From Tragulus kanchil (Eukaryota > Chordata > Mammalia > Artiodactyla > Tragulidae), in the NCBI GenBank assembly GCA_022376925.1, contig JAIOJX010000031.1, forward strand, positions 137,224,854-137,288,853: a stretch of DNA of 64,000 nt. The letters are read 5' to 3'. The notes below the pieces were generated by a model that saw only the letters and a program-made list of their open reading frames with translations, was not told the DNA's origin and ran no database searches. This document shows positions 1,719 through 59,659 of the stretch, piece after piece (the first letter of the stretch is position 1; every line of letters starts with the position of its first letter). Both the position numbers and the translations under genes were made by a program.

Positions 1719-2091
1719 GTCTTAGCTTGGGCTGCCATAGCAAAAATACTACAGACTGGGTAGCTTATAAACAAGAGAAATTGACTTCTTACAATTATAG
1801 AGATTGGAAATCTGATATCAGGGTGCTCGCATAATTAAATTCTCATGAGGACTCTCTCCAGGTTTCAGGCTGCCAGCTTTTTGTTGTATCCTCACATATG
1901 GAGAACAGAGAGGAAAAGCAAGCTTTCTTGTGATATTCACACACTAATCCTATTCGTGAGGGCTCTCCCCTCCTGACTTTATCTAATCCTAATTACCCCT
2001 CAGAGACTCCACCTTCTAATACCATCACATTGAAGAGTGGGATTTCAGCATATAAATTTTGGGAGGATGCACACATTCAGTCCATAACAGC
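1719..2091 (-). mobile_element. MLT1-like MaLR LTR (antisense)
   Basis: The stretch matches the known MLT1 layout read in reverse: GTCTTAG with a GGGCTGCCATAG block at the start, a GACTGGGTAGCTTATAAAC block that holds the TTTATT-like polyadenylation region, the ATCCTCACATATGG block, and the ACCATCACATT/CAGCATATAAATTTTGGG block at the end. It is an ancient mammalian ERVL-MaLR solo LTR. Its last ~90 bp are repeated at 3167-3256 only because of the duplication that begins at 2002. Confidence 0.8.
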
Positions 2092-2591
2092 AAAAAAAAA
2101 AAAAAAAGCCCATTTTTTGTGTGTTGTGGCTGATTTTCTAAGAACAGAAATTGCCCAACGTTAGCAAGTAGGAGAACAGAGGAATCAGATTTTCAGTTTA
2201 ACCCTCTTTGATTCCAAAATTAACAATCTCTCCTTCTTGCCATGCTGGAGGATCTTTTTTCAATGTTTGCCCTTGGCAATTTGTGTGTATGTGTGTGTGT
2301 GTGTCTCAGTTTCTCGTGTATTCTTGCTTTTTGAAGTACTTCTCTGTGCATTCAGTATCTCCCAGTCAGACACCTGTGCTTCCAATCTGTCTGGACTGCA
2401 ATGAATGGAGAAAGGGGTGTGGCCAGTAGATTTTAATTAAAATACTGCCTCCATCAAGGGTATTTGCATTTTGCACTGAGAAATCTGGAAAATTCAACAT
2501 TAAAGTCACTTGAATATGTTCACTCAACAACCTGAGTGTCACTCCCTGCCTTAGGATCCCCTAATTGGTCTCCCATTGTATTATTGCTTTG

Positions 2592-2975
2592 TTGGTCAGT
2601 TGTTCAGTTGTGTCCAACTATTTGTGGCTCCATGCACTGGAGCATGCCAGATTTCCCTGTCCTTTACTAAGGCTCTAACTCATGTCCATTGAGTCAGTGA
2701 CACCATTCAACCATTTCATCCTCTGTCACTTCTCTTGTCCTCAGTGTTTTCCAACATCAGGGTCTTTTCCAAAGAGTCTGCTTTTCCAATGAGCTGGCCA
2801 AAGTACTGGAGCTTCAGCTTCAGCGTCTGTCCTTCCAATTCAGGGTAGATTTCCTTTAAGATTGATTGGTTTGATGTCCTTGATGTCCAAGGGACTCTCA
2901 AGAGTCTTATCCAGTGCTACTGTTTGAAAGCATCAGTTCTTCAGTGCTCAGCCTTCTTTAGGGTCTTCTTTCTTT
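2592..2975 (-). mobile_element. ART2A/BovB 3'-end SINE (antisense)
   Basis: In reverse it shows the ruminant BovB 3' end: the GAAGCTCCAGTACTTTGGCC block, the GACTCTTGAGAGTCCCTTGG block and the terminal CAACTGACCAAC side. It is a non-coding ART2A-type SINE mobilised by BovB. A second copy at 3757-4141 and a 35-bp piece at 5186-5227 arise from duplications 1 and 2 and are probably not separate insertions. Confidence 0.85.
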
Positions 2976-3756
2976 GAACTACATGGCACAGTTTTTATGA
3001 AAATAAGTGTGTGTCTGAGACTGTTCATTAGTCCTAAATGTAGTTCTTGACTTCCAGACCCTTCTCTGTTAGGAGCCCAGTATTTCCAGTTCTAGATGTA
3101 ATAACTTTCCAGTGTCTTTGTTGCTTTATTACTTTTAAAAACAATTAAAAAGGGGCAAACCATGGTAGAGACTCCACCTTCTAATACCATCACATTGAAG
3201 AGTGGGATTTCAGCATATAAATTTTGGGAGGATGCACACATTCAGTCCATAACAGCAAAAAAAAAAAAAAAAGCCCATTTTTTGTGTGTTGTGGCTGATT
3301 TTCTAAGAACAGAAATTGCCCAACGTTAGCAAGTAGGAGAACAGAGGAATCAGATTTTCAGTTTAACCCTCTTTGATTCCAAAATTAACAATCTCTCCTT
3401 CTTGCCATGCTGGAGGATCTTTTTTCAATGTTTGCCCTTGGCAATTTGTGTGTATGTGTGTGTGTGTGTCTCAGTTTCTCGTGTATTCTTGCTTTTTGAA
3501 GTACTTCTCTGTGCATTCAGTATCTCCCAGTCAGACACCTGTGCTTCCAATCTGTCTGGACTGCAATGAATGGAGAAAGGGGTGTGGCCAGTAGATTTTA
3601 ATTAAAATACTGCCTCCATCAAGGGTATTTGCATTTTGCACTGAGAAATCTGGAAAATTCAACATTAAAGTCACTTGAATATGTTCACTCAACAACCTGA
3701 GTGTCACTCCCTGCCTTAGGATCCCCTAATTGGTCTCCCATTGTATTATTGCTTTG

Positions 3757-4141
3757 TTGGTCAGTTGTTCAGTTGTGTCCAACTATTTGTGGCTCCATGC
3801 ACTGGAGCATGCCAGATTTCCCTGTCCTTTACTAAGGCTCTAACTCATGTCCATTGAGTCAGTGACACCATTCAACCATTTCATCCTCTGTCACTTCTCT
3901 TGTCCTCAGTGTTTTCCAACATCAGGGTCTTTTCCAAAGAGTCTGCTTTTCCAATGAGCTGGCCAAAGTACTGGAGCTTCAGCTTCAGCGTCTGCCCTTT
4001 CCCAATTCAGGGTAGATTTCCTTTAAGATTGATTGGTTTGATGTCCTTGATGTCCAAGGGACTCTCAAGAGTCTTATCCAGTGCTACTGTTTGAAAGCAT
4101 CAGTTCTTCAGTGCTCAGCCTTCTTTAGGGTCTTCTTTCTT
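3757..4141 (-). mobile_element. ART2A SINE, second copy inside duplication 1
   Basis: This is the same element as at 2592-2975, with identical breakpoints in the surrounding sequence. It should be counted once if the duplication is an artifact. Confidence 0.85.
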
Positions 4142-6281
4142 TGAACTACATGGCACAGTTTTTATGAAAATAAGTGTGTGTCTGAGACTGTTCATTAGTC
4201 CTAAATGTAGTTCTTGACTTCCAGACCCTTCTCTGTTAGGAGCCCAGTATTTCCAGTTCTAGATGTAATAACTTTCCAGTGTCTTTGTTGCTTTATTACT
4301 TACACATTGTTCCACTCAATTCTTAAAGTGTTTAAAGAGGCAGATGGGGCAAACCATGGTGTTTGCATAACGGAGGAAACTGAGACATTTTGGGAGATTC
4401 AGGAACTTATTCAAGATGACAAACTAGTACCCATGTCAAGATAAATCTTGAACCGGGATCTCTTAGGAGTCTAGAGAGAAAGCAATCTGATAAACTAATC
4501 ACAATGATGCTTAATGGCTCTCATAATGTATTCTCTTTTCCAGATTTATTTGCATTTAAATACCAGAACTGGAAATAATCACTACTTAATGTGCCCTGTC
4601 AAGCCAGGGGAAGAACTATTTTGGAGTCTGGGGCCTGCCTACCTCTTAAATCACACTCTGAGGCTATCCACCTACTTCATCTATTCATGGTCCTGGCACC
4701 ACTGTCCTATCATGGGTTGACTTGAAATACCAATGATGACAATCTGAATATATACAATGTAATGCCCCAAACAAGTAGAAAATAGAAGCTGTTTCTCTTT
4801 TTCCTCCTCCTCTTTCTTCTTCTCTTCTCTCTCTCTAGCCTTTTTATTTTTAATTGTCTTCTCCCTGCAGAAATGTATTTTCTCATTTTCTTCACAAAAT
4901 TGCTCAGAGCTGTTTTCCTTTTCACTGCAGTTAAAAGTTACTAACTGCATCTCAGGCATATTCTCTAAGTTCCCAGAAGAAAAATAACCAGTTATCTAGA
5001 CTCTATCAGCAGCAGGGATAGTTCCTCTCTGATGCTGTTAGTCTGTTACAGCTTCCTTAACCCACAGACCATTTATGATAGACTTACCCTGGATAGGATG
5101 CCCTGGACCCTTAGTGGACAACCTGCCTTATCAGGGCAGGCAGTGTTCTCTGAATGCTACCTTTCCCAACGTTCTTACTGCGTGGTGAAAGCATCAGTGC
5201 TTCAGTGCTCAGCCTTCTTTAGGGTCTTCTTTCTTTGAACTACATGGCACAGTTTTTATGAAAATAAGTGTGTGTCTGAGACTGTTCATTAGTCCTAAAT
5301 GTAGTTCTTGACTTCCAGACCCTTCTCTGTTAGGAGCCCAGTATTTCCAGTTCTAGATGTAATAACTTTCCAGTGTCTTTGTTGCTTTATTACTTACACA
5401 TTGTTCCACTCAATTCTTAAAGTGTTTAAAGAGGCAGATGGGGCAAACCATGGTGTTTGCATAACGGAGGAAACTGAGACATTTTGGGAGATTCAGGAAC
5501 TTATTCAAGATGACAAACTAGTACCCATGTCAAGATAAATCTTGAACCGGGATCTCTTAGGAGTCTAGAGAGAAAGCAATCTGATAAACTAATCACAATG
5601 ATGCTTAATGGCTCTCATAATGTATTCTCTTTTCCAGATTTATTTGCATTTAAATACCAGAACTGGAAATAATCACTACTTAATGTGCCCTGTCAAGCCA
5701 GGGGAAGAACTATTTTGGAGTCTGGGGCCTGCCTACCTCTTAAATCACACTCTGAGGCTATCCACCTACTTCATCTATTCATGGTCCTGGCACCACTGTC
5801 CTATCATGGGTTGACTTGAAATACCAATGATGACAATCTGAATATATACAATGTAATGCCCCAAACAAGTAGAAAATAGAAGCTGTTTCTCTTTTTCCTC
5901 CTCCTCTTTCTTCTTCTCTTCTCTCTCTCTAGCCTTTTTATTTTTAATTGTCTTCTCCCTGCAGAAATGTATTTTCTCATTTTCTTCACAAAATTGCTCA
6001 GAGCTGTTTTCCTTTTCACTGCAGTTAAAAGTTACTAACTGCATCTCAGGCATATTCTCTAAGTTCCCAGAAGAAAAATAACCAGTTATCTAGACTCTAT
6101 CAGCAGCAGGGATAGTTCCTCTCTGATGCTGTTAGTCTGTTACAGCTTCCTTAACCCACAGACCATTTATGATAGACTTACCCTGGATAGGATGCCCTGG
6201 ACCCTTAGTGGACAACCTGCCTTATCAGGGCAGGCAGTGTTCTCTGAATGCTACCTTTCCCAACGTTCTTACTGTGTGGTG
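4092..6281. repeat. Duplication 2: 4092-5185 and 5186-6281 (period 1094)
   Basis: Copies start at TGAAAGCATCAGT (4092, 5186) and abut directly. The first 15 bases of copy 2 carry one substitution (TTC to TGC) and the junction sits in a short GTGGTGA homology. Content is single-copy, with a CT-rich tract near 4797-4840 and its twin near 5891-5934. No gene is seen in it. Copy 1 overlaps the end of duplication 1. Confidence 0.9.
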
Positions 6282-6477
6282 ACAGTTCATATTTTACAAA
6301 GTGACAAAGACATAGCAAGACCTCTCTGAGGCATATTCTCCCTTATTCTGGTTGCTGGCCTTCTCCTGACATCTCTGCCTTCGTGTTTTCCCTGAAAGAT
6401 TTCACCTTAATGACATAAATATTTTATGAGAGGGAGCTTTGAAATATATTATTTGCAAAATTTGGGGGCAATATTTG

Positions 6478-6602
6478 GTGACTGGGTTGGGAAAATCCCC
6501 AGGAGAAGGGATAGGCTACTCTCTCCAGTATTCTTGCCTGGAGAATTCCATGGCTCATCCATGGGGTCACAAAGAGTCGGACATGACTGAAAGCCTAACA
6601 CG
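6478..6602 (+). mobile_element. Bov-tA/Bov-A SINE fragment
   Basis: A ruminant BovB-derived A unit: the CCAGTATTCTTGCCTGGAGA core, CCATGG, the GGGTCACAAAGAGTCGGACA block and the ATGACTGA end. It lacks the tRNA-like head. The same element lies at 7600-7724 in the duplicate copy. Confidence 0.85.
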
Positions 6603-7599
6603 TTGGCTTTCTGGGATCCAGAGTGCATGTTGGCAGGCCAGTCAGAGCTGGATAATGAAGACATCAAGCTGTGTAACTGTGAGACATCATGGTGAAGTGC
6701 TTCCATCTTCAAAGGAAACATTTCAAAAGCTAGAATGACAGATGTCAGTGAATCGATTTTTAAAACACAGCCTTTTTCAAATATGAAAAGAATTCAAATA
6801 ATGTATTTCAGAGAAAGATGTGCGAGCCATGAGAGTCAGCTCTCAGAGTGTCTCTGGTGGTTTCACACCCATGCACATGGGTGGCCGAGCTGCCCGGATG
6901 AGCAGGAAGGGCAGCAGGCTCATGGCAGCAGCTGTTTCTGCTGGAGCCAGAGCTATACTTTTCTCTCATTTTGTCAGACACAACGTGTTATTTTGGTAAC
7001 TCTTTATTTTCCGCACCGCAGCTCCCCATGTAATTATTGAATGCAATTAGGTATTCCATGCTGCATAATTACTCAGCTATCTGTGCCTCTGAAAGATATG
7101 AAAATAAATGATCATGAAAGTTCGTGGTGAAAAGCCTCCATCCAAAGAATAAGCCTGGGTTTTCTAACTGCCTGATAATGTGTCTGAATGAGACAAAATA
7201 AAATTTAAACATTGTGGGGTGTTCTTCCATTGGCTGTACATGTGTATGAATGAAATGTAACATTCACATGACAGGGCAAACTGGCTGGGTTGACATTTTC
7301 TCTCATCTAAATCTATGGCTGCCTCTTCTTTTTTGTGAAGGCATCCAAATAAAACCTCTCTATGACATGGAAGAAAGGAGTAATGGATCAAGGTCCAAAA
7401 AATCCATAAATTCAGTCTAACTGACTAGTGCCCAGGTAGCAGACTCTCTGAGGCATATTCTCCCTTATTCTGGTTGCTGGCCTTCTCCTGACATCTCTGC
7501 CTTCGTGTTTTCCCTGAAAGATTTCACCTTAATGACATAAATATTTTATGAGAGGGAGCTTTGAAATATATTATTTGCAAAATTTGGGGGCAATATTTG

Positions 7600-7724
7600 G
7601 TGACTGGGTTGGGAAAATCCCCAGGAGAAGGGATAGGCTACTCTCTCCAGTATTCTTGCCTGGAGAATTCCATGGCTCATCCATGGGGTCACAAAGAGTC
7701 GGACATGACTGAAAGCCTAACACG
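7600..7724 (+). mobile_element. Bov-A SINE fragment, duplicate copy
   Basis: Identical to 6478-6602, carried by duplication 3; not an independent insertion on present evidence. Confidence 0.85.
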
Positions 7725-8649
7725 TTGGCTTTCTGGGATCCAGAGTGCATGTTGGCAGGCCAGTCAGAGCTGGATAATGAAGACATCAAGCTGTGTAACT
7801 GTGAGACATCATGGTGAAGTGCTTCCATCTTCAAAGGAAACATTTCAAAAGCTAGAATGACAGATGTCAGTGAATCGATTTTTAAAACACAGCCTTTTTC
7901 AAATATGAAAAGAATTCAAATAATGTATTTCAGAGAAAGATGTGCGAGCCATGAGAGTCAGCTCTCAGAGTGTCTCTGGTGGTTTCACACCCATGCACAT
8001 GGGTGGCCGAGCTGCCCGGATGAGCAGGAAGGGCAGCAGGCTCATGGCAGCAGCTGTTTCTGCTGGAGCCAGAGCTATACTTTTCTCTCATTTTGTCAGA
8101 CACAACGTGTTATTTTGGTAACTCTTTATTTTCCGCACCGCAGCTCCCCATGTAATTATTGAATGCAATTAGGTATTCCATGCTGCATAATTACTCAGCT
8201 ATCTGTGCCTCTGAAAGATATGAAAATAAATGATCATGAAAGTTCGTGGTGAAAAGCCTCCATCCAAAGAATAAGCCTGGGTTTTCTAACTGCCTGATAA
8301 TGTGTCTGAATGAGACAAAATAAAATTTAAACATTGTGGGGTGTTCTTCCATTGGCTGTACATGTGTATGAATGAAATGTAACATTCACATGACAGGGCA
8401 AACTGGCTTGGTTGACATTTTTCTCTCATCTAAATCTATGGCTGCCTCTTCTTTTTTTTGTGAAGGCATCCAAATAAAACCTCTCTATGACATGGAAGAA
8501 AGGAGTAATGGATCAAGGTCCAAAAAAAAATCCATAAATTCAGTCTAACTGACTAGTGCCCAGGTAGCTGGAGGGTCCACATCAAATCCATTCCTTTGCA
8601 CAAAGATGAAGAGAACAGCAAGACAAATTAAAATAGAGAAAGGGGCTTG

Positions 8650-9233
8650 GTTTTTATACACATCTATGCTAACTGAGAGTCTTGATTGGAAGTAACAGAA
8701 ACCCGATTGCAGCCAGCTTAAGCAAAGAAGGGGATTTGGTAACAAGATTCTGGGGCACCTCAGAGAATAAAAATGAGCTACAGGAATATTTGAAACTCAG
8801 AAACTGGACCTGGGGACTTGATTCTAAGACTCTGTCTCCCCCTGTCCATCTCTTTGTTTATTCTATTTTGGCTTCATTCTTTTCTATGCCAGAAAACTTT
8901 TTTCCATTCTGTAGTGTTCAACACTATTAGAAACTCTGGGGTCACATCTCTGAGGCTCCTATCAAAAGCAAAGGGATCCTCCTTGTTAGTTCTGTTAAGG
9001 AAAAAATGTTTAAAAAAGCCAAAGAATCTGATTGACCTAGATTAGGTCAAACCCCTGGGCCAATTCCTGGCTTGAGAGGCAGGTTAAGGTACTAAAAGGT
9101 AAGTTACTGAGAAGGGTAAGTTAAGGTCCTAACCTGAGGGGTAGGTTAAGTTCACAGAAGAAGGTGGGGGCTGGGACAGGAGAAGCAGAAAGCTAGTCAG
9201 ATAACAACAGTAGTAGCAAAGCACCCAAAGACA
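8650..9233. other. No gene seen; single-copy or ancient repeat
   Basis: The start (TTGGAAGTAACAGAAACCC, AGCTTAAGCAAAGAAGGGG) resembles a common ancient mammalian interspersed repeat that I cannot name with confidence. Near 9075-9150 there is a short array of AGGTTAAG/GGTAAGTTA-like words. No exon is evident. The twin copy lies at about 9787-10370. Confidence 0.4.
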
Positions 9234-9385
9234 CTTGCTCCTTGGAAGAAAAGCTATGACAAACCTAGACAGCACCTTCAAAAGCAGAGACATCACTTTG
9301 CCAACAAAAGTCCGTACAGTCATTGCTATGGTTTTCCCAGTAGTTATGTATGGGGGTGAACGTCAAAGAACTGATGCCTTTCAAT
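9234..9385 (+). mobile_element. BovB LINE 3' fragment (partial duplicate)
   Basis: Sense BovB text after the RT domain (CTTGGAAGAAAAGCTATGAC, CAGAGACATCACTTTGCCAA). It is cut at the junction of duplication 4; the full version lies at 10371-10876. Confidence 0.85.
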
Positions 9386-10370
9386 ATGTGCGGTGTTGCC
9401 TTCAAAGATAAGCCTGGGTTTTCTAACTGCCTGATAATGTGTCTGAATGAGACAAAATAAAATTTAAACATTGTGGGGTGTTCTTCCATTGGCTGTACAT
9501 GTGTATGAATGAAATGTAACATTCACATGACAGGGCAAACTGGCTTGGTTGACATTTTTCTCTCATCTAAATCTATGGCTGCCTCTTCTTTTTTTTGTGA
9601 AGGCATCCAAATAAAACCTCTCTATGACATGGAAGAAAGGAGTAATGGATCAAGGTCCAAAAAAAAATCCATAAATTCAGTCTAACTGACTAGTGCCCAG
9701 GTAGCTGGAGGGTCCACATCAAATCCATTCCTTTGCACAAAGATGAAGAGAACAGCAAGACAAATTAAAATAGAGAAAGGGGCTTGGTTTTTATACACAT
9801 CTATGCTAACTGAGAGTCTTGATTGGAAGTAACAGAAACCCGATTGCAGCCAGCTTAAGCAAAGAAGGGGATTTGGTAACAAGATTCTGGGGCACCTCAG
9901 AGAATAAAAATGAGCTACAGGAATATTTGAAACTCAGAAACTGGACCTGGGGACTTGATTCTAAGACTCTGTCTCCCCCTGTCCATCTCTTTGTTTATTC
10001 TATTTTGGCTTCATTCTTTTCTATGCCAGAAAACTTTTTTCCATTCTGTAGTGTTCAACACTATTAGAAACTCTGGGGTCACATCTCTGAGGCTCCTATC
10101 AAAAGCAAAGGGATCCTCCTTGTTAGTTCTGTTAAGGAAAAAATGTTTAAAAAAGCCAAAGAATCTGATTGACCTAGATTAGGTCAAACCCCTGGGCCAA
10201 TTCCTGGCTTGAGAGGCAGGTTAAGGTACTAAAAGGTAAGTTACTGAGAAGGGTAAGTTAAGGTCCTAACCTGAGGGGTAGGTTAAGTTCACAGAAGAAG
10301 GTGGGGGCTGGGACAGGAGAAGCAGAAAGCTAGTCAGATAACAACAGTAGTAGCAAAGCACCCAAAGACA

Positions 10371-10876
10371 CTTGCTCCTTGGAAGAAAAGCTATGACAAA
10401 CCTAGACAGCACCTTCAAAAGCAGAGACATCACTTTGCCAACAAAAGTCCGTACAGTCATTGCTATGGTTTTCCCAGTAGTTATGTATGGACGTACAGAA
10501 GGCTGAACGTCAAAGAACTGATGCCTTTCAATTCTGGTGTTGGACAAGAGTCGTGAGAGTCCCTTGGACAGCAAGGAGATCAAACCAGTGAATCCTAATG
10601 GAAATCCATCCTAGATACTCATTGGAAGGACTGATATTGAAGCTGAAGCTCCAATACTTTGGCCACCTGATGTGAAGAGACCACTGATGCTGGGAAAAAT
10701 AGAAGGCAAGAGGATACGGGGATGACAGTAGATGAGATGGTTGGATGGCATCACTGAGTCACTGGACATGAGTGTAAACAATCTCTGGGAGATGGTGAAG
10801 GACAGGGAAGCCTGGCATGCTGCAGTCCATGGTTCACAAAGTGTCGGACACGACTGAATAGTTGAACTGAACTGAA
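10371..10876 (+). mobile_element. BovB LINE, 5'-truncated 3' end
   Basis: About 500 bp of BovB from the C-terminal region of its ORF to the 3' end. It has the CACTTTGCCAACAAAAGTCC block, GGAGATCAAACCAGT, TTTGGCCACCTGATG, GGATGGCATCACTGAGTCA and a terminal GAACTGAACTGAA. Several frame-breaking changes make it non-coding. It ends in the typical BovB ACTGAA repeats rather than poly-A. Confidence 0.9.
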
Positions 10877-10899: not shown

Positions 10900-12810
10900 G
10901 GAAATTGTCCTCAGGGCTCAAGAGAATAATCTGATGTATACTGAGGTGGATAATTTTGTACAGAATCTTAGAATTCAGTTTTCTATTCCTGGAACTTGTA
11001 TTTTCTTTTGTGACCAGGACCCTGGTGAGGCCACATAAAAATGCATAAGAATTACAATTTTCAGGAGAAATCCAATATCAAAACCCCAGATATTGGGGCC
11101 AGGAATCGTGATGATGGAGACAAGCAAAGTCTTGGGGAGCCAGTTTTAAGAGTTGTCTTGTTGTGTTTAAGTTAATCAAGGCAGTCATGGACAAAAAGAA
11201 TGTTGGTTATTTTTTCCCACTCAGAAGTTTCAGTGATGGGAAGATTTATATTTTCTTGCCTCACTTAAAGATTATTTCTAAAGGAAATTTTGCTTCTTTC
11301 TCTTGGTAGATAAGTACACAGGCAGACTGGCAAAAATAATTGCCCAATGGCACTCTACTTTCTAAAAACAGTCAGAAATGAAGTATAGAACTTTGGGTGT
11401 TTCTATTGGACTATAAATTGCACAAAGACTAATTTGAATACTCCCAATGTCTTAGCTTAGTTTTCTCAGAAAGCAAGGCCTGAGGCAAACCTCCTGTGCT
11501 ATCTCTTTATTAGGAAATAAGATTCTAGGGAGCATTCTATGCTGTATACATAAAAGGGTAATGCTGAGTTAATCTTAGCTGGTCACTGCAGTTCTGGCCA
11601 ACACTGGAACAAGTGACCCTGAGTCAGATGAGGCTAAGAGGACTGAAAGTGACCTACGAGAGGCCCCTGTTTCCCCTAGAATCATATTTTCAGATCTCAA
11701 CAGGTATTCAAATAAGCAGATTAAAATCCAGAGAGTAAGAGACTTCAAAAGCCTCACAGCCAGTCATTTCAGTTAGTGACAGAGCTTAGAACACATCTAT
11801 TTCTAGCTCAGTCTATTCATTCATTTACCATGTTCTCCAAACATCAGACAGTCCTATGTGGCAAAATTTCCCAAACACCTCATGAGGTGAGAAGCACGTC
11901 AACACCTCCTAAATATTCATGAGCTGTTTAACGGTTCAATCTTGGTGGGTTGCAATATGTCTATCAGGATCTATTTATTCTCATTACTTCACTGCTGTTC
12001 TGGAGTGATGCATTATAAACAATTTATGATGTGTTGACAGGACAGATGAATGCTAGGATAATAGGCTGGAGAGGAGAAAATCTCACCATGGCACACAGAA
12101 TGCAGAGGCGTGACTCTGTAAAGGTTTATGGGAATGACACTGATGGCTTGCGTGCTTAGCCATTGATGCACCAGCCTGCAGCTCTGCTAGGCTTGTGTTG
12201 CAGAAGTTGTGTGTCTGCCTGCCTTTGCTGGCACTGGGTATCATTCTACAGGTAGAATCTGAACCTGTAGAATCTCTTTTTCCAAATGAAGGGTACCATG
12301 GCTGGGAGGTGCTAGTGGTCAGTAGTCTGTGGGCACAAATATCTTTGAATGCTTAATGCCTTAGTAAAACTTTGGAGGGGTGGGGGGAGAAATCTAAACG
12401 TCATTTAGCTCAAGTTGTGGTTGAAAATTAAGTTTCCAAAAGTCAAAGCTAATCGCTTAGCCTAAGTAGTGCTATCATTTAGAGCTGCTGTTTTGAAAAT
12501 TGTATCTGAGAACAGAACCAGGATATTCCTCAAATGCTGAGTATTTATCCTTCTCTGCCGCTCACAATGAGAGAGCACTGACTCACTTACCCAGAGTGAG
12601 GACAGAACTCTGCTTTTCTCCCACTCCTCTTACACACCTCGCCTAGACACAGCTCCAAATGAGTAAACAGAAACCCTGTTAAGCTTTTTTCTTCCCAGGA
12701 TACACATTAGGAAAAAAATGTTATGTACTCATTAAGTATTATCCAGGTAAATAGATAAAAGTATTATCGGGTAAAGAGGTAAATGGGGGTTGTTCAAGGA
12801 CACAGAGATG
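10900..12810. other. No gene seen; mostly single-copy sequence
   Basis: I find no exon, RNA gene or confident young repeat in this stretch. The part from 11932 on is repeated by duplication 5. Short frames lack motifs. Confidence 0.45.
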
Positions 12811-14092
12811 GCACCTTTTAGAATCGGAAACCTGAGTTCTGGCTGTCATCTCCACATGACCCTGAGAAGTGCCTCATATTTCTTATCTGTGAAATGTGTG
12901 TTTAGATGAATTGCCTACATACCTTAAAGGTAAATGAACACATCTGAAAGCACATTGAAAAGAGTGAAAAGATATAAGGAAAACAAAGGAAGGGAATCAA
13001 TTTTAGGTTCAATCCCTTGGTGAGGTTTTGCAATATTGTTCTATCAGGATCTATTTATTCTCATTACTTCACTGCTGTTCTGGAGTGATGCATTATAAAC
13101 AATTTATGATGTGTTGACAGGACAGATGAATGCTAGGATAATAGGCTGGAGAGGAGAAAATCTCACCATGGCACACAGAATGCAGAGGCGTGACTCTGTA
13201 AAGGTTTATGGGAATGACACTGATGGCTTGCGTGCTTAGCCATTGATGCACCAGCCTGCAGCTCTGCTAGGCTTGTGTTGCAGAAGTTGTGTGTCTGCCT
13301 GCCTTTGCTGGCACTGGGTATCATTCTACAGGTAGAATCTGAACCTGTAGAATCTCTTTTTCCAAATGAAGGGTACCATGGCTGGGAGGTGCTAGTGGTC
13401 AGTAGTCTGTGGGCACAAATATCTTTGAATGCTTAATGCCTTAGTAAAACTTTGGAGGGGTGGGGGGAGAAATCTAAACGTCATTTAGCTCAAGTTGTGG
13501 TTGAAAATTAAGTTTCCAAAAGTCAAAGCTAATCGCTTAGCCTAAGTAGTGCTATCATTTAGAGCTGCTGTTTTGAAAATTGTATCTGAGAACAGAACCA
13601 GGATATTCCTCAAATGCTGAGTATTTATCCTTCTCTGCCGCTCACAATGAGAGAGCACTGACTCACTTACCCAGAGTGAGGACAGAACTCTGCTTTTCTC
13701 CCACTCCTCTTACACACCTCGCCTAGACACAGCTCCAAATGAGTAAACAGAAACCCTGTTAAGCTTTTTTCTTCCCAGGATACACATTAGGAAAAAAATG
13801 TTATGTACTCATTAAGTATTATCCAGGTAAATAGATAAAAGTATTATCGGGTAAAGAGGTAAATGGGGGTTGTTCAAGGACACAGAGATGGCACCTTTTA
13901 GAATCGGAAACCTGAGTTCTGGCTGTCATCTCCACATGACCCTGAGAAGTGCCTCATATTTCTTATCTGTGAAATGTGTGTTTAGATGAATTGCCTACAT
14001 ACCTTAAAGGTAGATTCTGAAGAGAAAATAAATGAACACATCTGAAAGCACATTGAAAAGAGTGAAAAGATATAAGGAAAACAAAGGAAGGC
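11932..14092. repeat. Duplication 5: 11932-12993 and 13006-14092 (period 1080)
   Basis: Copies share everything from a GGTTCAATC start to AAACAAAGGAAGG. The first ~30 bases of copy 2 are a distorted version of copy 1 (extra T, G and CC). Near its 3' end copy 1 lacks an 18-19-base segment (GATTCTGAAGAGAAAATA region) present in copy 2. Between these ends the copies look identical by eye. Confidence 0.9.
12818..12932 (-). mobile_element. MIR SINE fragment (antisense)
   Basis: The reverse strand carries the weak MIR pattern: GAACTCAGGTTTCC, loss-of-function-free non-coding core, and the TTTCACAGATAAG region. Copies at about 13898-14012 and 14980-15094 come from duplications 5 and 6. Confidence 0.5.
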
Positions 14093-14191
14093 CTTTTCCC
14101 TCTGTCTCTCTGTTCATTTCACTCAATTCTTGAGAATTATTTGGATAGTTTATACAAGTTATTCCTCGTATCCACCATGGAGGTGAACTAT

Positions 14192-36644: not shown

Positions 36645-36657
36645 TCATTTTCACTTT

Positions 36658-37225: not shown

Positions 37226-37257
37226 TGAATCTTTCTAAGTTGATTTTCTTTTTGGTT

Positions 37258-40260: not shown

Positions 40261-40261
40261 C

Positions 40262-46180: not shown

Positions 46181-48380
46181 TATATTGGCCAAAATACCAT
46201 TGTGAGTGTTGTAGTAATCAGTTGGGAAGTTGAGTAACAAAGCGGGGAGGGTGTGTGTGTGTTATCCAAGCCACTGAAAATGGTAAGAAGGTTTGTGGCA
46301 TTATGCACATTTTAGCCCTTTCTCCTGCCCAGTTTGTTGCAGTCTTATTGGGAGGAAACCTCCCAAATCCGGCTCCTCCCTTGGGAGAGAAAGGAAAGAG
46401 TGAAACTTGTATTCAATACTCTGGCGGGTCCAGTGACTGCCCGAGGGACTGGTTTCTGTCTTATGACATTAGAGCTAACGGCAATAGTGACATTGTTTGG
46501 ATATTAACTTGGAGACCATGCTGAAAACAGAGGCAAGCACTGCAGCATGTCAGAGCAGCAGGGAGCCTGAATTCTGGAGAGAGGCCTCAGGGGAATTATA
46601 GGCAAAAGAATACAACGCAACCAGAAACTAAAAGCTCCTGAAATGGAGCAGGGTAAGCTTCTTAATTAAATTGAGAATAGTGAAAAGCAGCTGTATATGC
46701 TGAAATAAATGCATGCAAACAAGCCCAGAGAATATGCCAAGGAAAGATTTGAGAAGTCCCAGAACCTTTAGGAAGGCTGATTAGAGAAGGTCTTCGCTTT
46801 CATGAAGTTAGTCTAGAAAGATTGGGAGAAGTAAGTAGCTCTTCAGTCAAATGCACAAGACTCAACAAAGGATCACAAATTGTTCAAAAAACAAGGCCAT
46901 ACAGACAAAGCAAAAGAATAAAATAAATCTCTAGAAAACAATCCTAAGAATCTCTTAAAATTGGACCCAACAGACACATACAGGATACTACTCCAAATAA
47001 AGAGAATATGCATTCTTCAAATGTTCTCCAGGATAGATCACTTATTAGATCACAAAACTCTTAAAACTTTAATTAACATTTTAATGTTAGCTTAAATTCT
47101 CTAAGTAGAATGAAATCATGCTAAGTGTCTTTTCTGACACAATGGAATGAATTTAGAAATCAATAGTAGAAGGAAAGATGAAAAATCCACATGTGGAAAT
47201 TTCAGTATGTGAACATTAAACAGCATACTCTTAAACAGCGAATGAATCAAAGAAGAAATGACAGGGAAATTAGAAAATATCCTACCCATAGCAAAAACAT
47301 ATATTGGCCAAAATACCAGGTTTTAGACGTGGAAGGTCAAAGCGGGAGGGTGTGTGTGTTATCCAAGCCACTGAAAATGGTAAGAAGGTTTGTGGCATTA
47401 TGCACATTTTAGCCCTTTCTCCTGCCCAGTTTGTTGCAGTCTTATTGGGAGGAAACCTCCCAAATCCGGCTCCTCCCTTGGGAGAGAAAGGAAAGAGTGA
47501 AACTTGTATTCAATACTCTGGCGGGTCCAGTGACTGCCCGAGGGACTGGTTTCTGTCTTATGACATTAGAGCTAACGGCAATAGTGACATTGTTTGGATA
47601 TTAACTTGGAGACCATGCTGAAAACAGAGGCAAGCACTGCAGCATGTCAGAGCAGCAGGGAGCCTGAATTCTGGAGAGAGGCCTCAGGGGAATTATAGGC
47701 AAAAGAATACAACGCAACCAGAAACTAAAAGCTCCTGAAATGGAGCAGGGTAAGCTTCTTAATTAAATTGAGAATAGTGAAAAGCAGCTGTATATGCTGA
47801 AATAAATGCATGCAAACAAGCCCAGAGAATATGCCAAGGAAAGATTTGAGAAGTCCCAGAACCTTTAGGAAGGCTGATTAGAGAAGGTCTTCGCTTTCAT
47901 GAAGTTAGTCTAGAAAGATTGGGAGAAGTAAGTAGCTCTTCAGTCAAATGCACAAGACTCAACAAAGGATCACAAATTGTTCAAAAAACAAGGCCATACA
48001 GACAAAGCAAAAGAATAAAATAAATCTCTAGAAAACAATCCTAAGAATCTCTTAAAATTGGACCCAACAGACACATACAGGATACTACTCCAAATAAAGA
48101 GAATATGCATTCTTCAAATGTTCTCCAGGATAGATCACTTATTAGATCACAAAAAACTCTTAAAACTTTAATTAACATTTTAATGTTAGCTTAAATTCTC
48201 TAAGTAGAATGAAATCATGCTAAGTGTCTTTTCTGACACAATGGAATGAATTTAGAAATCAATAGTAGAAGGAAAGATGAAAAATCCACATGTGGAAATT
48301 TCAGTATGTGAACATTAAACAGCATACTCTTAAACAGCGAATGAATCAAAGAAGAAATGACAGGGAAATTAGAAAATATC
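46181..48380. repeat. Duplication 15: 46181-47281 and 47300-48380 (period ~1097-1119)
   Basis: Copies start at TATATTGGCCAAAATACCA. The next ~50 bases of copy 2 are a compressed form of copy 1 (about 22 bases shorter). The spacer 47282-47299 is a degraded version of bases upstream of copy 1. Homopolymers differ (CACAAAAC versus CACAAAAAAC). The rest looks identical. Confidence 0.9.
46955..47281 (+). mobile_element. L1 ORF2 fragment (first, duplicated instance)
   Basis: The region between endonuclease and RT: ATTGGACCCAACAGACACAT, CAAATGTTCTCCAGGATAGA, GAAGAAATGACAGGGAAATT. It is cut at 47281 by the duplication junction and is complete from 48053 on. Confidence 0.75.
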
Positions 48381-49214
48381 TCAAGATAAATAAAAATGAA
48401 AGCAGAACACATTAAAACTTATGGATAGTATGAAAGCAGTGTCAGGAGGGAGGTTTGTATCTTTAAATGCTTTAAAAAGTGGAGAGAAGTGAATACTTGC
48501 AAACTCATTCTATGAGGTTAGCATTACCCTGATACCAAAACCAGAGAAAGACACTATAAGACAAAACAAACAAATAAACGATCCCGTCCTCCCAAAACCT
48601 CCAAAAAATTCCAAAATTCATAGAGAAAAATATATTTAATGAATATGGGTTGAAAAATCCTAAACAAAATATTAGCAAGTCTAAATCACTGGTACCTTTA
48701 AAGGATTATAACCCATGGCCAAGTGGGATTTATATCTGGAATGCAATGATGGGGTCAACATACAAAAGTCAATTTATCATACCAAATTAATAGTAGGAAG
48801 AAAAAAAAACACATGATAATTTCAATTTTTGCAAAAAAGGATAGTGACAAAATTTAAGAGCATTTTATGATAGAAGCATTCAAGAAATTAGGAGAGAATT
48901 AAGAAAGGCTATATATGAAAAGCCTCAGCTAATATCATACTCAATGTTGAAATATGGAAAGATCAGGAATAAGGCAGGGTGCTCTCATCATTTCTTTTCA
49001 ACATCGTAGTGGAAATCTTAGTCAGAGCAATTAGTCAGGAAAGATAAATAAAACACATTCAAATTGGAAAGTAAGAATAAATTTATATCTTTGGAGTCAA
49101 CATGATCTTACAGGTAGAAAATTCTCAAGATTCCACCAAAAATTGTTAGAACTAATAAATGAATTCAGTGAAGTTGCAGGATATAAAATCAAACCACAAA
49201 ATCAATTCTGCTTC

Positions 49215-49945
49215 TGAAAGGGTTTTACCTCAATTTGAGACTTCAACCCAGGGCCCAGACCTGATCGAACCCTGCTTGGGACTTTAACCCACAAAGCTGG
49301 AGCTTGAATTACAGCCAAAACCCTGTCTGGGACTTGAACCCACATGACTGGGGCTTGAACCTAGCCAATACCTGGTTTGGAACTCGAACCCACGTGGCTA
49401 AGGCTTAACCCCAGCCAAAACCCTGCTTGGGACTTGAATCCACGTAGTCAGGACTCAATCCTGGCTAAAACCCTGTCTGTGACTCAAACCCACGCGGCCA
49501 GGACTTAATCCAGCACTCACCCAATGTCTGGACCCACTGAGGCTCAGGTTCTTTGTGCCTCAATGCAGAAGGAATCCAGCGAGAGGCAGCGTGATAGGCA
49601 AGAAGAGGATTTATTAGGATAGGGTACTTGTAAGAGGTGCAAGCGGACAGACAGGAAAGCTCTGCTCTCTCCAATTGAGTGGGCAGCCATATATATAGGA
49701 TGGTAGAAGACCGCCCCCCTCAAGTAGATGCAGATGCAGGACATACATCATTGATTGCTTCTTCGTCAGCTCCTCCTTCATCAGTTGTTTATACCCAGTC
49801 AAGCCTGCTTTACTGAACAAGGAGCAGCTCTCCTGAGTTATTGTCAACTCACTGCCCTCCCAACCTTTCTCAGGTGTCTCCCTTCTACCTACCATCCCCT
49901 ACTAGGACTCTACAACCACCTACCTATTCTACTCTGTCCCTATCA
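49215..49945 (-). mobile_element. Solo ERV LTR in L1 (antisense), class I-like
   Basis: Bounded by TG...CA (TGAAAGG at 49215, CCCTATCA ending 49945) and flanked by a 4-bp CTTC at 49211-49214 and 49946-49949; a 4-bp duplication fits class I (gammaretrovirus-like) ERVs. On the minus strand a TATATATA box (about 49689-49697) precedes an AATAAA at 49615-49610 by ~75 bp, as in a U3-R layout. The R/U5 side is unusually long and holds a ~50-bp tandem repeat. No internal retroviral genes remain. A regulatory relic only. The family name is not known to me. Confidence 0.72.
49271..49521. repeat. Minisatellite inside the LTR, ~50 bp x 5
   Basis: A CCTG anchor recurs at 49271, 49322, 49371, 49422 and 49472, giving spacings of 51, 49, 51 and 50. 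Each unit holds a GGGACTTGAACCCAC-like word, a GTGGCT/CAGGACT word and GCCAAAACCCTG. Units are diverged 10-25% by eye, so the array is not freshly expanded. Its twin spans about 50401-50651. Confidence 0.8.
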
Positions 49946-50344
49946 CTTCTATACACTAACAATGAACAATCACAAAAGGAAAATAAGAAATCAGTTCTGT
50001 TTATGATAGCATGAAAAAATACTCAAATAAAAAGTTAATCAAGGAGATTAAAACTTGTACATTGGAAACTATGGAGCATGGCCTAAAGAGATAAAAGCAA
50101 AAAAGAAAATATTCTTTGTTTATGGACTAGAAGACTTCATATTTAAAAGACTTTGAGCAATTAGTCAGGAAAGATAAATAAAACACATTCAAATTGGAAA
50201 GTAAGAATAAATTTATATCTTTGGAGTCAACATGATCTTACAGGTAGAAAATTCTCAAGATTCCACCAAAAATTGTTAGAACTAATAAATGAATTCAGTG
50301 AAGTTGCAGGATATAAAATCAAACCACAAAATCAATTCTGCTTC

Positions 50345-51075
50345 TGAAAGGGTTTTACCTCAATTTGAGACTTCAACCCAGGGCCCAGACCTGATCGAAC
50401 CCTGCTTGGGACTTTAACCCACAAAGCTGGAGCTTGAATTACAGCCAAAACCCTGTCTGGGACTTGAACCCACATGACTGGGGCTTGAACCTAGCCAATA
50501 CCTGGTTTGGAACTCGAACCCACGTGGCTAAGGCTTAACCCCAGCCAAAACCCTGCTTGGGACTTGAATCCACGTAGTCAGGACTCAATCCTGGCTAAAA
50601 CCCTGTCTGTGACTCAAACCCACGGGGCCAGGACTTAATCCAGCACTCACCCAATGTCTGGACCCACTGAGGCTCAGGTTCTTTGTGCCTCAATGCAGAA
50701 GGAATCCAGCGAGAGGCAGCGTGATAGGCAAGAAGAGGATTTATTAGGATAGGGTACTTGTAAGAGGTGCAAGCGGACAGACAGGAAAGCTCTGCTCTCT
50801 CCAATTGAGTGGGCAGCCATATATATAGGATGGTAGAAGACCGCCCCCCTCAAGTAGATGCAGATGCAGGACATACATCATTGATTGCTTCTTCGTCAGC
50901 TCCTCCTTCATCAGTTGTTTATACCCAGTCAAGCCTGCTTTACTGAACAAGGAGCAGCTCTCCTGAGTTATTGTCAACTCACTGCCCTCCCAACCTTTCT
51001 CAGGTGTCTCCCTTCTACCTACCATCCCCTACTAGGACTCTACAACCACCTACCTATTCTACTCTGTCCCTATCA
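50345..51075 (-). mobile_element. ERV LTR, duplicate copy
   Basis: Second instance of 49215-49945 with the same CTTC flanks and minisatellite, from duplication 16. It should not be read as a 5'/3' LTR pair: no internal region lies between them, and the flanking L1 is duplicated too. Confidence 0.75.
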
Positions 51076-51750
51076 CTTCTATACACTAACAATGAACAAT
51101 CACAAAAGGAAAATAAGAAATCAGTTCTGTTTATGATAGCATGAAAAAATACTCAAATAAAAAGTTAATCAAGGAGATTAAAAACTTGTACATTGGAAAC
51201 TATGGAGCATGGCCTAAAGAGATAAAAGAAAACACAAATAAATAGAAAGATATTCTTTGTTTATGGACTAGAAGACTTCATATTTTTAAAGATTTTGCTA
51301 CTTTCCAAAGCAATCTACATAATCAATTCATTTTATACCAAAATATCAATGGCATGTTCTGTAGGAATAGAAAACCCATGCTAGAATTTATACAAAATCT
51401 CAATGGAACCTGAATATCTAAAACAATCTTGAAACATAAGAACAAAGTTGGAGCTCTCATATCTCTTAAATTTCTAAGCATATTACAAAACCACACTAAC
51501 CAAAACAAAGTTGCCCTCCTGTCTGGCATAATGACAAGCATATAGACCAAAGGAATAGAATAGAGAGCCCAGAAACACACCATTATGTATATAGTCAGAG
51601 GATTCGCAACTGGAGGGCCAAAGGCACTCAGGAGGGAGAGGACAAATGGTGTTAGGAAAACCTGATCCCCACATACAGTGCAATAAAGTTGTGCACCATT
51701 GGAAAGGCTGTAAATTGGTACAGACACTATGGAAAACAATACAGAGGTGT

Positions 51751-53205: not shown

Positions 53206-53209
53206 AAGT

Positions 53210-53624: not shown

Positions 53625-55793
53625 CGTTAAAAAAGATGGGCTTTGGTTTGCTTCCAAGTCGTAGAGACGTAAGTCCTCTTTTAAACATGTTATTTATGCC
53701 CAGAGCTGACCTTACTGAATGGAGTGGGCGGGGGCAGGACTACCATGAGGGGTGAAGTGGGGAGGAAGAGTGAGATGGGGGCAGGTGGTAGTGGTGATTT
53801 TATATTACAGAAAGATTCTTTGCCTTACAAAAGGATTAATCAAAGGGTTCCTTTTAAACCAAAAGTTTCATGCATTTTAAAAAAGGATTTGATTTACAAG
53901 AAAGTTTTCAGGAACACAGCTGCTGGGCAAAGCAAGCTATTTACACCGACTTGAAATCCATTTTATGAGCCAGGAGTCTGGATGTCAGGGTGAGTGATAA
54001 AACTCCTTTCGTTTTTAATTGACGAGAGATATTGACTCACACAGTTAGGAGCCCGAGTCTTGGGCCTGGGCCAGTGTGTTTCTGTAGTAAATACGTGTGA
54101 ATGTGCTGAGTGCTTGAGTATTGATTCATTTATGTACCTGTTTGGCTTTTTCTGTGCAGGGCTTTGTATTTTGCAGCTTTAGAGCCAAGCTGGCTTTCAC
54201 AGAAGACAGTGTTAGAATGTACCAGGTTGTACAGCATGAATCATCTGGCTCAATGGCCTTTGGGGAGGGGCCTGGCTTTGTGCAGCACAGCAAGGAGCAG
54301 CCACAGAGACTTCAGTGGAGGGGAAGACCTGGGGGCAAGCAGGCTGCACAGGCAAGGAGAATGGTCTTTACCTTGGAAACAAACCTCAAGGCTTCTTTTA
54401 AGCCCTTCCCTCTCGATGTTGCCAGCTAATAGTTATCTCCCTCCCAATTGTCCCACTCCATTGAGTTTTTATTATCACCTCGGTCTTGTGGCAATTCCAC
54501 ACCAACCCTGACGGCCTTAAATAATTTCCTCTTTCCTGCTCCCTACTGCTAAGGCACAATGGCAGCGTATCAGGCTGAGAGCTTCCAGAAAGAGAGAGTG
54601 TCCTACTGCTGAGCCTCAGATCGCAACTAAGCAAAGAAAACCATAGAAGGTCTTTGTTGCACAGGTTCTAAGACCTACCTTGAATATTGTCCATAGGATT
54701 TCATCTTGGAGCGTTAAAAAGATGGGCTTTGGTTTGCTTCCAAGTCGTAGAGACGTAAGTCCTCTTTAAACATGTTATTTATGCCCAGAGCTGACCTTAC
54801 TGAATGGAGTGGGCGGGGCAGGACTACCATGAGGGGTGAAGTGGGAGGAAGAGTGAGATGGGCCAGGTGGTAGTGGTGATTTTATATTACAGAAAGATTC
54901 TTTGCCTTACAAAAGGATTAATCAAAGGGTTCCTTTTAAACCAAAAGTTTCATGCATTTTAAAAAAGGATTTGATTTACAAGAAAGTTTTCAGGAACACA
55001 GCTGCTGGGCAAAGCAAGCTATTTACACCGACTTGAAATCCATTTTATGAGCCAGGAGTCTGGATGTCAGGGTGAGTGATAAAACTCCTTTCGTTTTTAA
55101 TTGACGAGAGATATTGACTCACACAGTTAGGAGCCCGAGTCTTGGGCCTGGGCCAGTGTGTTTCTGTAGTAAATACGTGTGAATGTGCTGAGTGCTTGAG
55201 TATTGATTCATTTATGTACCTGTTTGGCTTTTTCTGTGCAGGGCTTTGTATTTTGCAGCTTTAGAGCCAAGCTGGCTTTCACAGAAGACAGTGTTAGAAT
55301 GTACCAGGTTGTACAGCATGAATCATCTGGCTCAATGGCCTTTGGGGAGGGGCCTGGCTTTGTGCAGCACAGCAAGGAGCAGCCACAGAGACTTCAGTGG
55401 AGGGGAAGACCTGGGGGCAAGCAGGCTGCACAGGCAAGGAGAATGGTCTTTACCTTGGAAACAAACCTCAAGGCTTCTTTTAAGCCCTTCCCTCTCGATG
55501 TTGCCAGCTAATAGTTATCTCCCTCCCAATTGTCCCACTCCATTGAGTTTTTATTATCACCTCGGTCTTGTGGCAATTCCACACCAACCCTGACGGCCTT
55601 AAATAATTTCCTCTTTCCTGCTCCCTACTGCTAAGGCACAATGGCAGCGTATCAGGCTGAGAGCTTCCAGAAAGAGAGAGTGTCCTACTGCTGAGCCTCA
55701 GATCGCAACTAAGCAAAGAAAACCATAGAAGGTCTTTGTTGCACAGGTTCTAAGACCTACCTTGAATATTGTCCATAGGATTTCATCTTGGAG
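53625..55793. repeat. Duplication 17: 53625-54711 and 54712-55793 (period 1082-1087)
   Basis: Copies start at CGTTAAAAA and end at TTCATCTTGGAG. Copy 2 is shorter in runs within its first ~160 bases: A5 versus A6, T3 versus T4, GGGG versus GGGGG, GGG versus GGGG, and GGGCC for GGGGGC. After that the two look identical. Content is single-copy, conserved-looking sequence without a defended gene. Confidence 0.92.
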
Positions 55794-56396
55794 CAGGCTC
55801 ATGATAAGATGATTATACTTTAAAAAAGCTACTGTTCTCAGAGGGTAAAGATATTAGAGATTCAGTTAGCAACGGCGAATATTTACTGAGTTTTGGAGAG
55901 GTAGAAGTTTCCTAGGGCATCATATTTTGCGTAAATAAGACAAAAGAAACCCGGTGGAGACAGACCTCAAGGACCTTGCAATCTAATAGGAGAGAAAGCC
56001 CAGGGTAGTTCGTGCATTATCCTGCCCGAGGACAACGTAATGGTTCAACATACTCGCTTCTTCTTTGGCTGTGTGGCTTGACTGCTTTAGCTGATGAAAT
56101 GTGAAGACACCTAAGAGAGATTCACATTTTGCTGGACTGTCTTCTTTCCTTCAGGCAAGTACATTGGTTCAATGTCAACTAGGCTCTAAGAACAAAAAAG
56201 ATGACCACGTAGGTGGTGATGCTGGAACAAAGTCCCCAGCTAATCTGTGGGGGACTTTTGTCATCTTAAGCCCTGACATTTTAATGGTATTTTCTGCCTC
56301 AGTGTAAGCTAGCCTCTGACTCACACTCTGGCTCAATTCTGTGTAGCAGCAAAGGTTAATCTTAAATGCTTTTCAGTTGATTAAAGCTAACTTTCT

Positions 56397-56585
56397 TGTG
56401 CTTCCCTTGTGGCTCAGATGGTAAAGAATCCGCCTACAGTGTGGGAGACCCTGATTCGATTCCTGGGTCAGAAAGATTCCCTGGAGAAGGGAGAGTATAC
56501 CCACTGCAGTATTCTTGTCTGGAGAATTCCATGGCTTGTGCATGGGTCGCAGAGAGTAAGACACGACTGAGCGACTTCACTTCCT
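56397..56585 (+). mobile_element. Bov-tA SINE
   Basis: GTGCTTCCCTTGTGGCTCAG head, GACCCTGATTCGATTCCTGG (B box), CACTGCAGTATTCTTGTCTG, GGGTCGCAGAGAGTAAGACA and CGACTGAGCGACTTCACTTC. Duplicates lie at 57511-57699 and, headless, at 58609-58779. Confidence 0.9.
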
Positions 56586-57510
56586 TACTTACTGTTAACT
56601 TATCTTCATATTATACTATAGCAAATATTGGCTAACTGGTTAGGAAATCAATATACAAGCGACTGGGGGAAGAAAAGGACCTTTGAAATTTGCCAGCTCA
56701 GGATTGACGGCCTTAAATAATTTCCTCTTTCCTGCTCCCTACTGCTAAGGCACAATGGCAGCGTATCAGGCTGAGAGCTTCCAGAAAGAGAGAGTGTCCT
56801 ACTGCTGAGCCTCAGATCGCAACTAAGCAAAGAAAACCATAGAAGGTCTTTGTTGCACAGGTTCTAAGACCTACCTTGAATATTGTCCATAGGATTTCAT
56901 CTTGGAGCAGGCTCATGATAAGATGATTATACTTTAAAAAAGCTACTGTTCTCAGAGGGTAAAGATATTAGAGATTCAGTTAGCAACGGCGAATATTTAC
57001 TGAGTTTTGGAGAGGTAGAAGTTTCCTAGGGCATCATATTTTGCGTAAATAAGACAAAAGAAACCCGGTGGAGACAGACCTCAAGGACCTTGCAATCTAA
57101 TAGGAGAGAAAGCCCAGGGTAGTTCGTGCATTATCCTGCCCGAGGACAACGTAATGGTTCAACATACTCGCTTCTTCTTTGGCTGTGTGGCTTGACTGCT
57201 TTAGCTGATGAAATGTGAAGACACCTAAGAGAGATTCACATTTTGCTGGACTGTCTTCTTTCCTTCAGGCAAGTACATTGGTTCAATGTCAACTAGGCTC
57301 TAAGAACAAAAAAGATGACCACGTAGGTGGTGATGCTGGAACAAAGTCCCCAGCTAATCTGTGGGGGACTTTTGTCATCTTAAGCCCTGACATTTTAATG
57401 GTATTTTCTGCCTCAGTGTAAGCTAGCCTCTGACTCACACTCTGGCTCAATTCTGTGTAGCAGCAAAGGTTAATCTTAAATGCTTTTCAGTTGATTAAAG
57501 CTAACTTTCT

Positions 57511-57699
57511 TGTGCTTCCCTTGTGGCTCAGATGGTAAAGAATCCGCCTACAGTGTGGGAGACCCTGATTCGATTCCTGGGTCAGAAAGATTCCCTGGAG
57601 AAGGGAGAGTATACCCACTGCAGTATTCTTGTCTGGAGAATTCCATGGCTTGTGCATGGGTCGCAGAGAGTAAGACACGACTGAGCGACTTCACTTCCT
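57511..57699 (+). mobile_element. Bov-tA SINE, duplicate copy
   Basis: Second instance of 56397-56585, through duplication 18. Confidence 0.9.
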
Positions 57700-57824
57700 T
57701 ACTTACTGTTAACTTATCTTCATATTATACTATAGCAAATATTGGCTAACTGGTTAGGAAATCAATATACAAGCATAGAATCTGGGAGGAAGAAAAGGAC
57801 CTTTGAAATTTGCCCAGCTCAGGT

Positions 57825-58285
57825 CTTTTCCTATCCTGCTGTATTTGCTTGTGGGTATCTCTCTCCATCTACTGTCCCTCTGCCTATCCTTCAATCTAAA
57901 TAGGAATGATGCATTTCATGTAAGCTTTTACTGTAGTGCTTTTAAATGATTATCATTTATATTACTCACTTTGACCTGGGTTGGACAATTATACCATTAA
58001 CTTCATGTAGTTATGAGACTTAGATAAGGAATAAAGAATATTTAAATAAGTAAGGAATATTTAAAAAATTAAAAGCAGCATTCGAATATGTTTATCTCAT
58101 AAATGTTTATTGAAAATGTTGGCAAAAGTAGTTTTGTGTGTGATCTGGGAATCAGTCACAGAAACAAGGATCAATGACTGTTTGTGGTGTAGGAGCTTAG
58201 AGGCTTCTCGAAGGAAACAAAGTGTTAGCTTCATTGTATAGTGCTGATATTTACAATTCTTTTTGTTTTTTTGCCTCTAAGTCAT
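57825..58285. other. No gene seen; AT-rich single-copy sequence
   Basis: Nothing recognised apart from its repetition at about 58904-59366 through duplication 19. Confidence 0.4.
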
Positions 58286-58522
58286 CGTTTTATTTTTCAT
58301 CCGTCTTTGTTCTTTGGCCTGTGTGGGCCTCCCATTGCGGTGGCCTCTCTCAGTGCAGAGCACTGGCTCTGGGCGCATGCGCTCCAGAGCACTGATGCGT
58401 AATTGGACACACCAGTCCAGTCACTCCGTGGCATGTGGGATCTTTCCGGGCCACAGATCGAACTGATGCCCCTTGCACGGCAAGGTGGACTCTTTACCCA
58501 CTGGACCACCAGGGAAGTCCTA
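58286..58522 (-). mobile_element. CHR-type tRNA-derived SINE (antisense)
   Basis: On the minus strand it starts AGGACTTCCCTGGTGGTCCA, has GATCTGTGGCCCGGAAAGAT, a GCATGCGCCCAGAGCC block and GGAGGCCCACACAGGCCAAA, then an A-rich tail. It is the same SINE type as 19329. The duplicate at 59367-59604 has a slightly different tail. Confidence 0.83.
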
Positions 58523-59366
58523 CAGTTTTAATATAATCTCAGGATTATCAGTGACCACATTTGTAATAGGCAAACCAGGGAATCAGAAATTGAATGCCGC
58601 TAGTCCCCCAGATGGTAAAGAATCCGCCTACAGTGTGGGAGACCCTGATTCGATTCCTGGGTCAGAAAGATTCCCTGGAGAAGGAGAGTATACCCACTGC
58701 AGTATTCTTGTCTGGAGAATTCCATGGCTTGTGCATGGGTCGCAGAGAGTAAGACACGACTGAGCGACTTCACTTCCTTACTTACTGTTAACTTATCTTC
58801 ATATTATACTATAGCAAATATTGGCTAACTGGTTAGGAAATCAATATACAAGCATAGAATCTGGGAGGAAGAAAAGGACCTTTGAAATTTGCCCAGCTCA
58901 GGTCTTTTCCTATCCTGCTGTATTTGCTTGTGGGTATCTCTCTCCATCTACTGTCCCTCTGCCTATCCTTCAATCTAAATAGGAATGATGCATTTCATGT
59001 AAGCTTTTACTGTAGTGCTTTTAAATGATTATCATTTATATTACTCACTTTGACCTGGGTTGGACAATTATACCATTAACTTCATGTAGTTATGAGACTT
59101 AGATAAGGAATAAAGAATATTTAAATAAGTAAGGAATATTTAAAAAATTAAAAGCAGCATTCGAATATGTTTATCTCATAAATGTTTATTGAAAATGTTG
59201 GCAAAAGTAGTTTTGTGTGTGATCTGGGAATCAGTCACAGAAACAAGGATCAATGACTGTTTGTGGTGTAGGAGCTTAGAGGCTTCTCGAAGGAAACAAA
59301 GTGTTAGCTTCATTGTATAGTGCTGATATTTACAATTCTTTTTGTTTTTTTGCCTCTAAGTCATCG

Positions 59367-59604
59367 TTTTATTTTTCATCCATCTTTTATTTTTCTTTGG
59401 TCTGTGTGGGCCTCCCATTGCGGTGGCCTCTCTCAGTGCAGAGCACTGGCTCTGGGCGCATGCGCTCCAGAGCACTGATGCGTAATTGGACACACCAGTC
59501 CAGTCACTCCGTGGCATGTGGGATCTTTCCGGGCCACAGATCGAACTGATGCCCCTTGCACGGCAAGGTGGACTCTTTACCCACTGGACCACCAGGGAAG
59601 TCCT
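59367..59604 (-). mobile_element. CHR-type SINE, duplicate copy
   Basis: Second instance of 58286-58522, through duplication 19. Confidence 0.83.
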
Positions 59605-59659
59605 ACAGTTTTAATATAATCTCAGGATTATCAGTGACCACATTTGTAATAGGCAAACA

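Follow-up and report, generated by a model that had tools for sequence, protein, structure and literature searches.

False homotype duplications, one type of which consists of overlapping sequences at contig boundaries that differ in consensus quality, were described by Rhie et al. (2021; PMC8081667), who traced one example to a bug in FALCON; Ko et al. (2022; PMC9516828) describe this kind of false duplication as well. The 19 sequence pairs investigated here resemble the cases in these two papers in that the same locus seems to occur twice, in adjacent copies of differing consensus quality. Judged by the sections of these papers that deal with such duplications, the published cases are about as long as a read, whereas the present pairs have a fixed size of ~1.1 kb, number 19 in ~43 kb and contain no N between their copies.

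In the long-read assemblers wtdbg and wtdbg2, a consensus is computed for each graph edge; neighbouring edges have in common a node of 1024 raw bases, i.e. four 256-base bins, and this common node has to be merged when the consensus is built, which normally succeeds. The pairs would be like this fuzzy-Bruijn-graph layout in that a node of fixed length is common to adjacent edge consensuses, and unlike it in that the merge would here have failed. The bins of 256 bases are documented for wtdbg2 (PMC9902641), with which a ruminant genome, that of the mule deer, was assembled (PMC9650288). Among the matches listed from an incomplete library, titles and abstracts contained no description of a dense, gap-free homotype form of fixed size, nor of a wtdbg2 failure of this kind; both are weak evidence.

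Results

The window, i.e. the whole stretch of 64,000 bases analysed, was compared with itself by BLASTN. Nineteen direct pairs with identities of 97.7-99.8% were found between positions 2002 and 59658 (Table 1). No full third copy was observed among them, and six partial third copies were obtained where adjacent pairs overlap, as alignments of 202-304 bp. Beyond the pairs and the partial copies, the window showed no further direct match of at least 90% identity at E<=1e-20; nor did it show any inverted match of at least 93% at E<=1e-20, or any Ns. The first 2 kb (1-2001) and the last 4.3 kb (59659-64000) were likewise free of pairs, so that a further unmerged junction, if there is one, must be located beyond the window or so close to its end that it does not show. 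The period ranged from 1073 to 1187 (mean 1124.8, SD 31.9, CV 2.8%), so that the length of the overlap is effectively constant, as expected if tiles overlap by a fixed length. Together the pairs occupy 41,116 of the 64,000 bases (64%). Their periods sum to 21,371, and collapsing them would leave a window of 42,629 bp. These results were in agreement with the original prediction of 19 direct pairs, each present twice and none three times in full, with an excess of ~21.3 kb and a true length of ~42-43 kb. The predicted period range of 1080-1187 gave the spread correctly, but not the shortest value, since pair 5 measured 1073 by BLAST and 1080 only as a k-mer offset.

Table 1. Direct sequence pairs in the 64,000-base window. 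Coordinates are positions in the window; identity is that between copy 1 and copy 2.
Pair	Copy 1	Copy 2	Span	Strand	Identity (%)	Remarks
1	2002-3134	3167-4301	2002..4301	.	99.7	32 leftover bases between copies, resembling sequence beyond copy 2
2	4092-5188	5186-6282	4092..6282	.	99.8	210 bp common with pair 1, present three times
3	6313-7440	7437-8568	6313..8568	.	99.2	
4	8265-9385	9403-10532	8265..10532	.	98.9	304 bp overlap with pair 3
5	11933-12993	13006-14091	11933..14091	.	97.7	Left end against polarity (copy 1 is 7 bases shorter)
6	13842-14923	14923-16005	13842..16005	.	99.6	250 bp overlap with pair 5; left end against polarity (2 bases to 1)
7	18646-19752	19782-20898	18646..20898	.	98.1	29 leftover bases, resembling sequence before copy 1
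8	21398-22510	22507-23624	21398..23624	.	99.6	
9	25608-26773	26772-27950	25608..27950	.	98.6	
10	29840-30971	30987-32117	29840..32117	.	99.8	15 leftover bases, resembling sequence before copy 1
11	31916-33047	33071-34210	31916..34210	.	99.2	202 bp overlap with pair 10
12	36127-37230	37256-38359	36127..38359	.	99.7	Over minus-strand LINE-1 ORF2, residues read twice
13	39300-40454	40487-41644	39300..41644	.	99.7	32 leftover bases, resembling sequence before copy 1
14	41628-42766	42767-43906	41628..43906	.	99.8	17 bp overlap with pair 13
15	46180-47281	47299-48380	46180..48380	.	97.7	Copy 2 start without 22 bases (small deletions)
16	49025-50155	50155-51297	49025..51297	.	98.7	50-bp minisatellite in both copies
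17	53625-54712	54712-55794	53625..55794	.	99.5	
18	55591-56702	56705-57823	55591..57823	.	99.4	204 bp overlap with pair 17
19	57529-58575	58609-59658	57529..59658	.	99.2	295 bp overlap with pair 18

Comparison of the copies revealed 90 difference events, namely 31 indels in homopolymer runs of at least three bases, 39 other indels and 20 substitutions. Homopolymer length had been named as the main difference between copies; it does account for 31 of the 90 events, but the 39 other indels and 20 substitutions do not allow the word 'mainly'. When the outer 170 bp at each side of an aligned unit were taken as end zones, 69 of the 90 differences fell within them (31% expected; p=3e-19 if the events are independent). 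Of the 29 indels at the right end, 28 left copy 1 the shorter (89 bases against 1), and of the 30 at the left end, 23 left copy 2 the shorter (38 bases against 9). Because indels within one pair are not independent, a second count was made by pair-end: 19 of the 38 pair-ends were of unequal length, and the copy on the junction side was the shorter one in 17 of these (combined p=0.0007). On the right, all ten unequal pair-ends were shorter at the junction side (p=0.002); on the left this was the case for seven of nine, which is not significant alone (p=0.18), pairs 5 and 6 being opposed.

If tiles had been left unmerged, copy 1 would end at a ragged tail and copy 2 would start at a ragged head, so that differences should be found at the unit ends and should be polarised, affecting copy 1 on the right and copy 2 on the left. 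A real duplication predicts neither end-clustered nor polarised differences between its copies. The observed ratios of 28:1 and 23:7 indicate a loss of bases next to the false junction, such as would arise where consensus tiles that were computed separately have ragged ends. In a biological tandem duplication the differences should be independent of the junction side, which they were not. The middle zone contained 11 indels, with copy 1 shorter in nine, which is not predicted by the tile-end model.

At ten junctions, at least 10 unaligned bases were present between the copies. These leftovers were tested against 300 random pieces of the window, with two flanks tested per junction. In four of the ten they resembled one outer flank at p<0.02, i.e. 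the sequence a short way beyond copy 2 in pair 1 and a short way before copy 1 in pairs 7, 10 and 13; we interpret these four as possible degraded continuations of tiles. The other six showed no clear match to either outer flank. If the animal itself carried recent, genuine tandem duplications of ~1.1 kb, the near identity of the copies and their direct orientation would be accounted for. However, 19 separate events of one size would have had to occur in ~43 kb, and the base loss polarised to the junction sides and the resemblance of some leftovers to degraded flank also speak against such events, which we consider most improbable. Biological tandem duplication was rejected because of the constancy of size and the polarity.

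The 20 substitutions between copies might alternatively derive from the two parental haplotypes, placed end to end as a heterotype false duplication. Substitutions are, however, few (20 in ~21 kb), the differences are dominated by indels clustered at the ends, and contigs of 1.1 kb every time are not expected from haplotypes. This explanation is hardly credible and was rejected on account of the small number of substitutions.

No Pfam family was found at E<=0.01 in the 10 ORFs scanned of the 65 stop-to-stop ORFs of at least 90 aa, so that no exon was available as a yardstick and a LINE-1 ORF2 lying across pair 12 took that role. On the minus strand, the match of ORF 37773-37165 to human ORF2p starts at residue 802 and stops at ~973; by coordinates this end falls where copy 2 begins (37256), and the ORF departs from LINE-1 at the junction. 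In one chain's numbering the printed match extends as far as residue 980, and the stretch past ~973 was taken as chance. ORF 36644-35769 (minus strand) matches human ORF2p 802-1092, and ORF 35768-35229 (minus strand) resumes it at 1094-1271; the ORF2 is colinear only when one copy is disregarded. As had been proposed, a pair boundary thus lies inside an L1. The ORF2 is broken at the junction and then reread, indicating that the doubling is later than the LINE-1, which alone cannot separate artefact from biology. The 3' part of this ORF2 at 35229-36644 (minus strand) comprises two adjacent open frames (291 and 179 codons), both with matches to human ORF2p, and the LINE-1 there is perhaps a fairly young element.

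Dispersed alignments within the window crossed none of the 19 junctions, three of the 19 copy-1 starts and one of the 19 copy-2 ends; they cover 14% of the window and are too few to weigh. A minisatellite with a 50-bp unit (~4.9 copies, ~70% matches) was observed at 49268-49511 and again at 50398-50641, both within pair 16, and is probably single in the real genome. Two stretches of the plus strand, 16110-16394 and 61816-62576, read like a BovB-type reverse transcriptase; no Pfam family was obtained for 62193-62576, inside the second putative stretch. Positions 16171-16254 and 61841-61924 are 89% identical. An imperfect AC microsatellite is located at 63634-63677 (22 copies, 85% matches).

The distances between successive overlaps were analysed for a unit of one quarter of the overlap (281 bp), of which they might be multiples. 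Copy starts fitted this unit well, with a mean cosine of 0.505 (p=0.001; p=0.005 for the 12 distances above 1 kb alone), and 284 was their best unit in a scan of 150-600 (scan-corrected p=0.03). For midpoints the quarter overlap gave p=0.011, with a best scan unit of ~425 (scan-corrected p=0.20), and for copy ends it failed (p=0.13; best scan unit 423, scan-corrected p=0.27). As a pointer to a wtdbg-type node, the quarter-overlap spacing is suggestive at most. Compared with 256, the unit of ~281-284 is larger by ~10%; a bin of this size might come from reads losing ~10% of their bases, a loss conceivable for deletion-prone nanopore data, or from ragged tile ends.

Discussion

We regard the 19 pairs as an assembly artefact with overlaps left unmerged, since their size is constant, their orientation direct only and their base loss polarised to the junction side; we put the probability at about 0.96, a figure which covers the artefact and not the program. 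We know of no biological duplication that fits this combination. The proposal that overlapping tiles were joined without merging is supported by the same three features, above all by the polarised base loss. Consensus would have been computed separately for successive overlapping tiles of ~1.9-4.8 kb, and neighbouring tiles with ~1.1 kb in common would have been written end to end with the shared part untrimmed. One tile would then finish with copy 1 and its neighbour open with copy 2, and thin, ragged read support at such tails and heads may have led to the base loss there. We infer the unmerged join, and likewise the tile boundaries, from the pairs, their sizes, the polarity and some of the leftovers. 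It counts against an artefact that the same fault throughout would make the assembly ~1.5 times too long, so that the fault must be local or the assembly unusually poor.

By the features examined in the sequence, the pairs would belong to the known class of false homotype duplications. Their high identity, differing mostly by indels at the ends with only 20 substitutions in ~21 kb, suggests one locus written twice rather than two alleles, and the polarised loss on the junction side is consistent with copies that meet at putative boundaries of tiles or contigs and differ in consensus quality.

As for the program, a wtdbg/wtdbg2-type assembler is suggested as the likeliest, at about even odds, and deletion-prone long reads are suggested as the data source; the node common to adjacent edge consensuses would in that case have been left unmerged. 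That the pairs represent a specific failure of a fixed-node long-read assembler, recognizable without reads by a period of ~1.1 kb, by decay of the ends that is polarised and by a spacing in quarter overlaps, has in our estimate just short of an even chance. The tiles might also have been left unmerged by a different program or step, such as a gap filler, a polisher working on overlapping chunks or a scaffolder abutting overlapping contigs. The evidence for an artefact applies equally to this sub-case, which we advance tentatively, at odds somewhat below even, and the spacing quantum is only suggestive. The combination of a constant overlap of ~1.1 kb with variable tiles of 1.9-4.8 kb suits a shared node of fixed length instead, and so does the quarter-overlap spacing of the starts. 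Speaking for the sub-case, a FALCON bug has been documented as a cause of homotype duplication (PMC8081667).

If a fixed-node assembler did fail in this way, deposited genomes could be screened for the failure. The polarity signature is a test that requires no reads and could reveal this fault in further assemblies. With regard to data hygiene, false sequence would make up a third of the window (21,371 of 64,000 bases), with spurious duplications of the content there and an inflated genome size as consequences.
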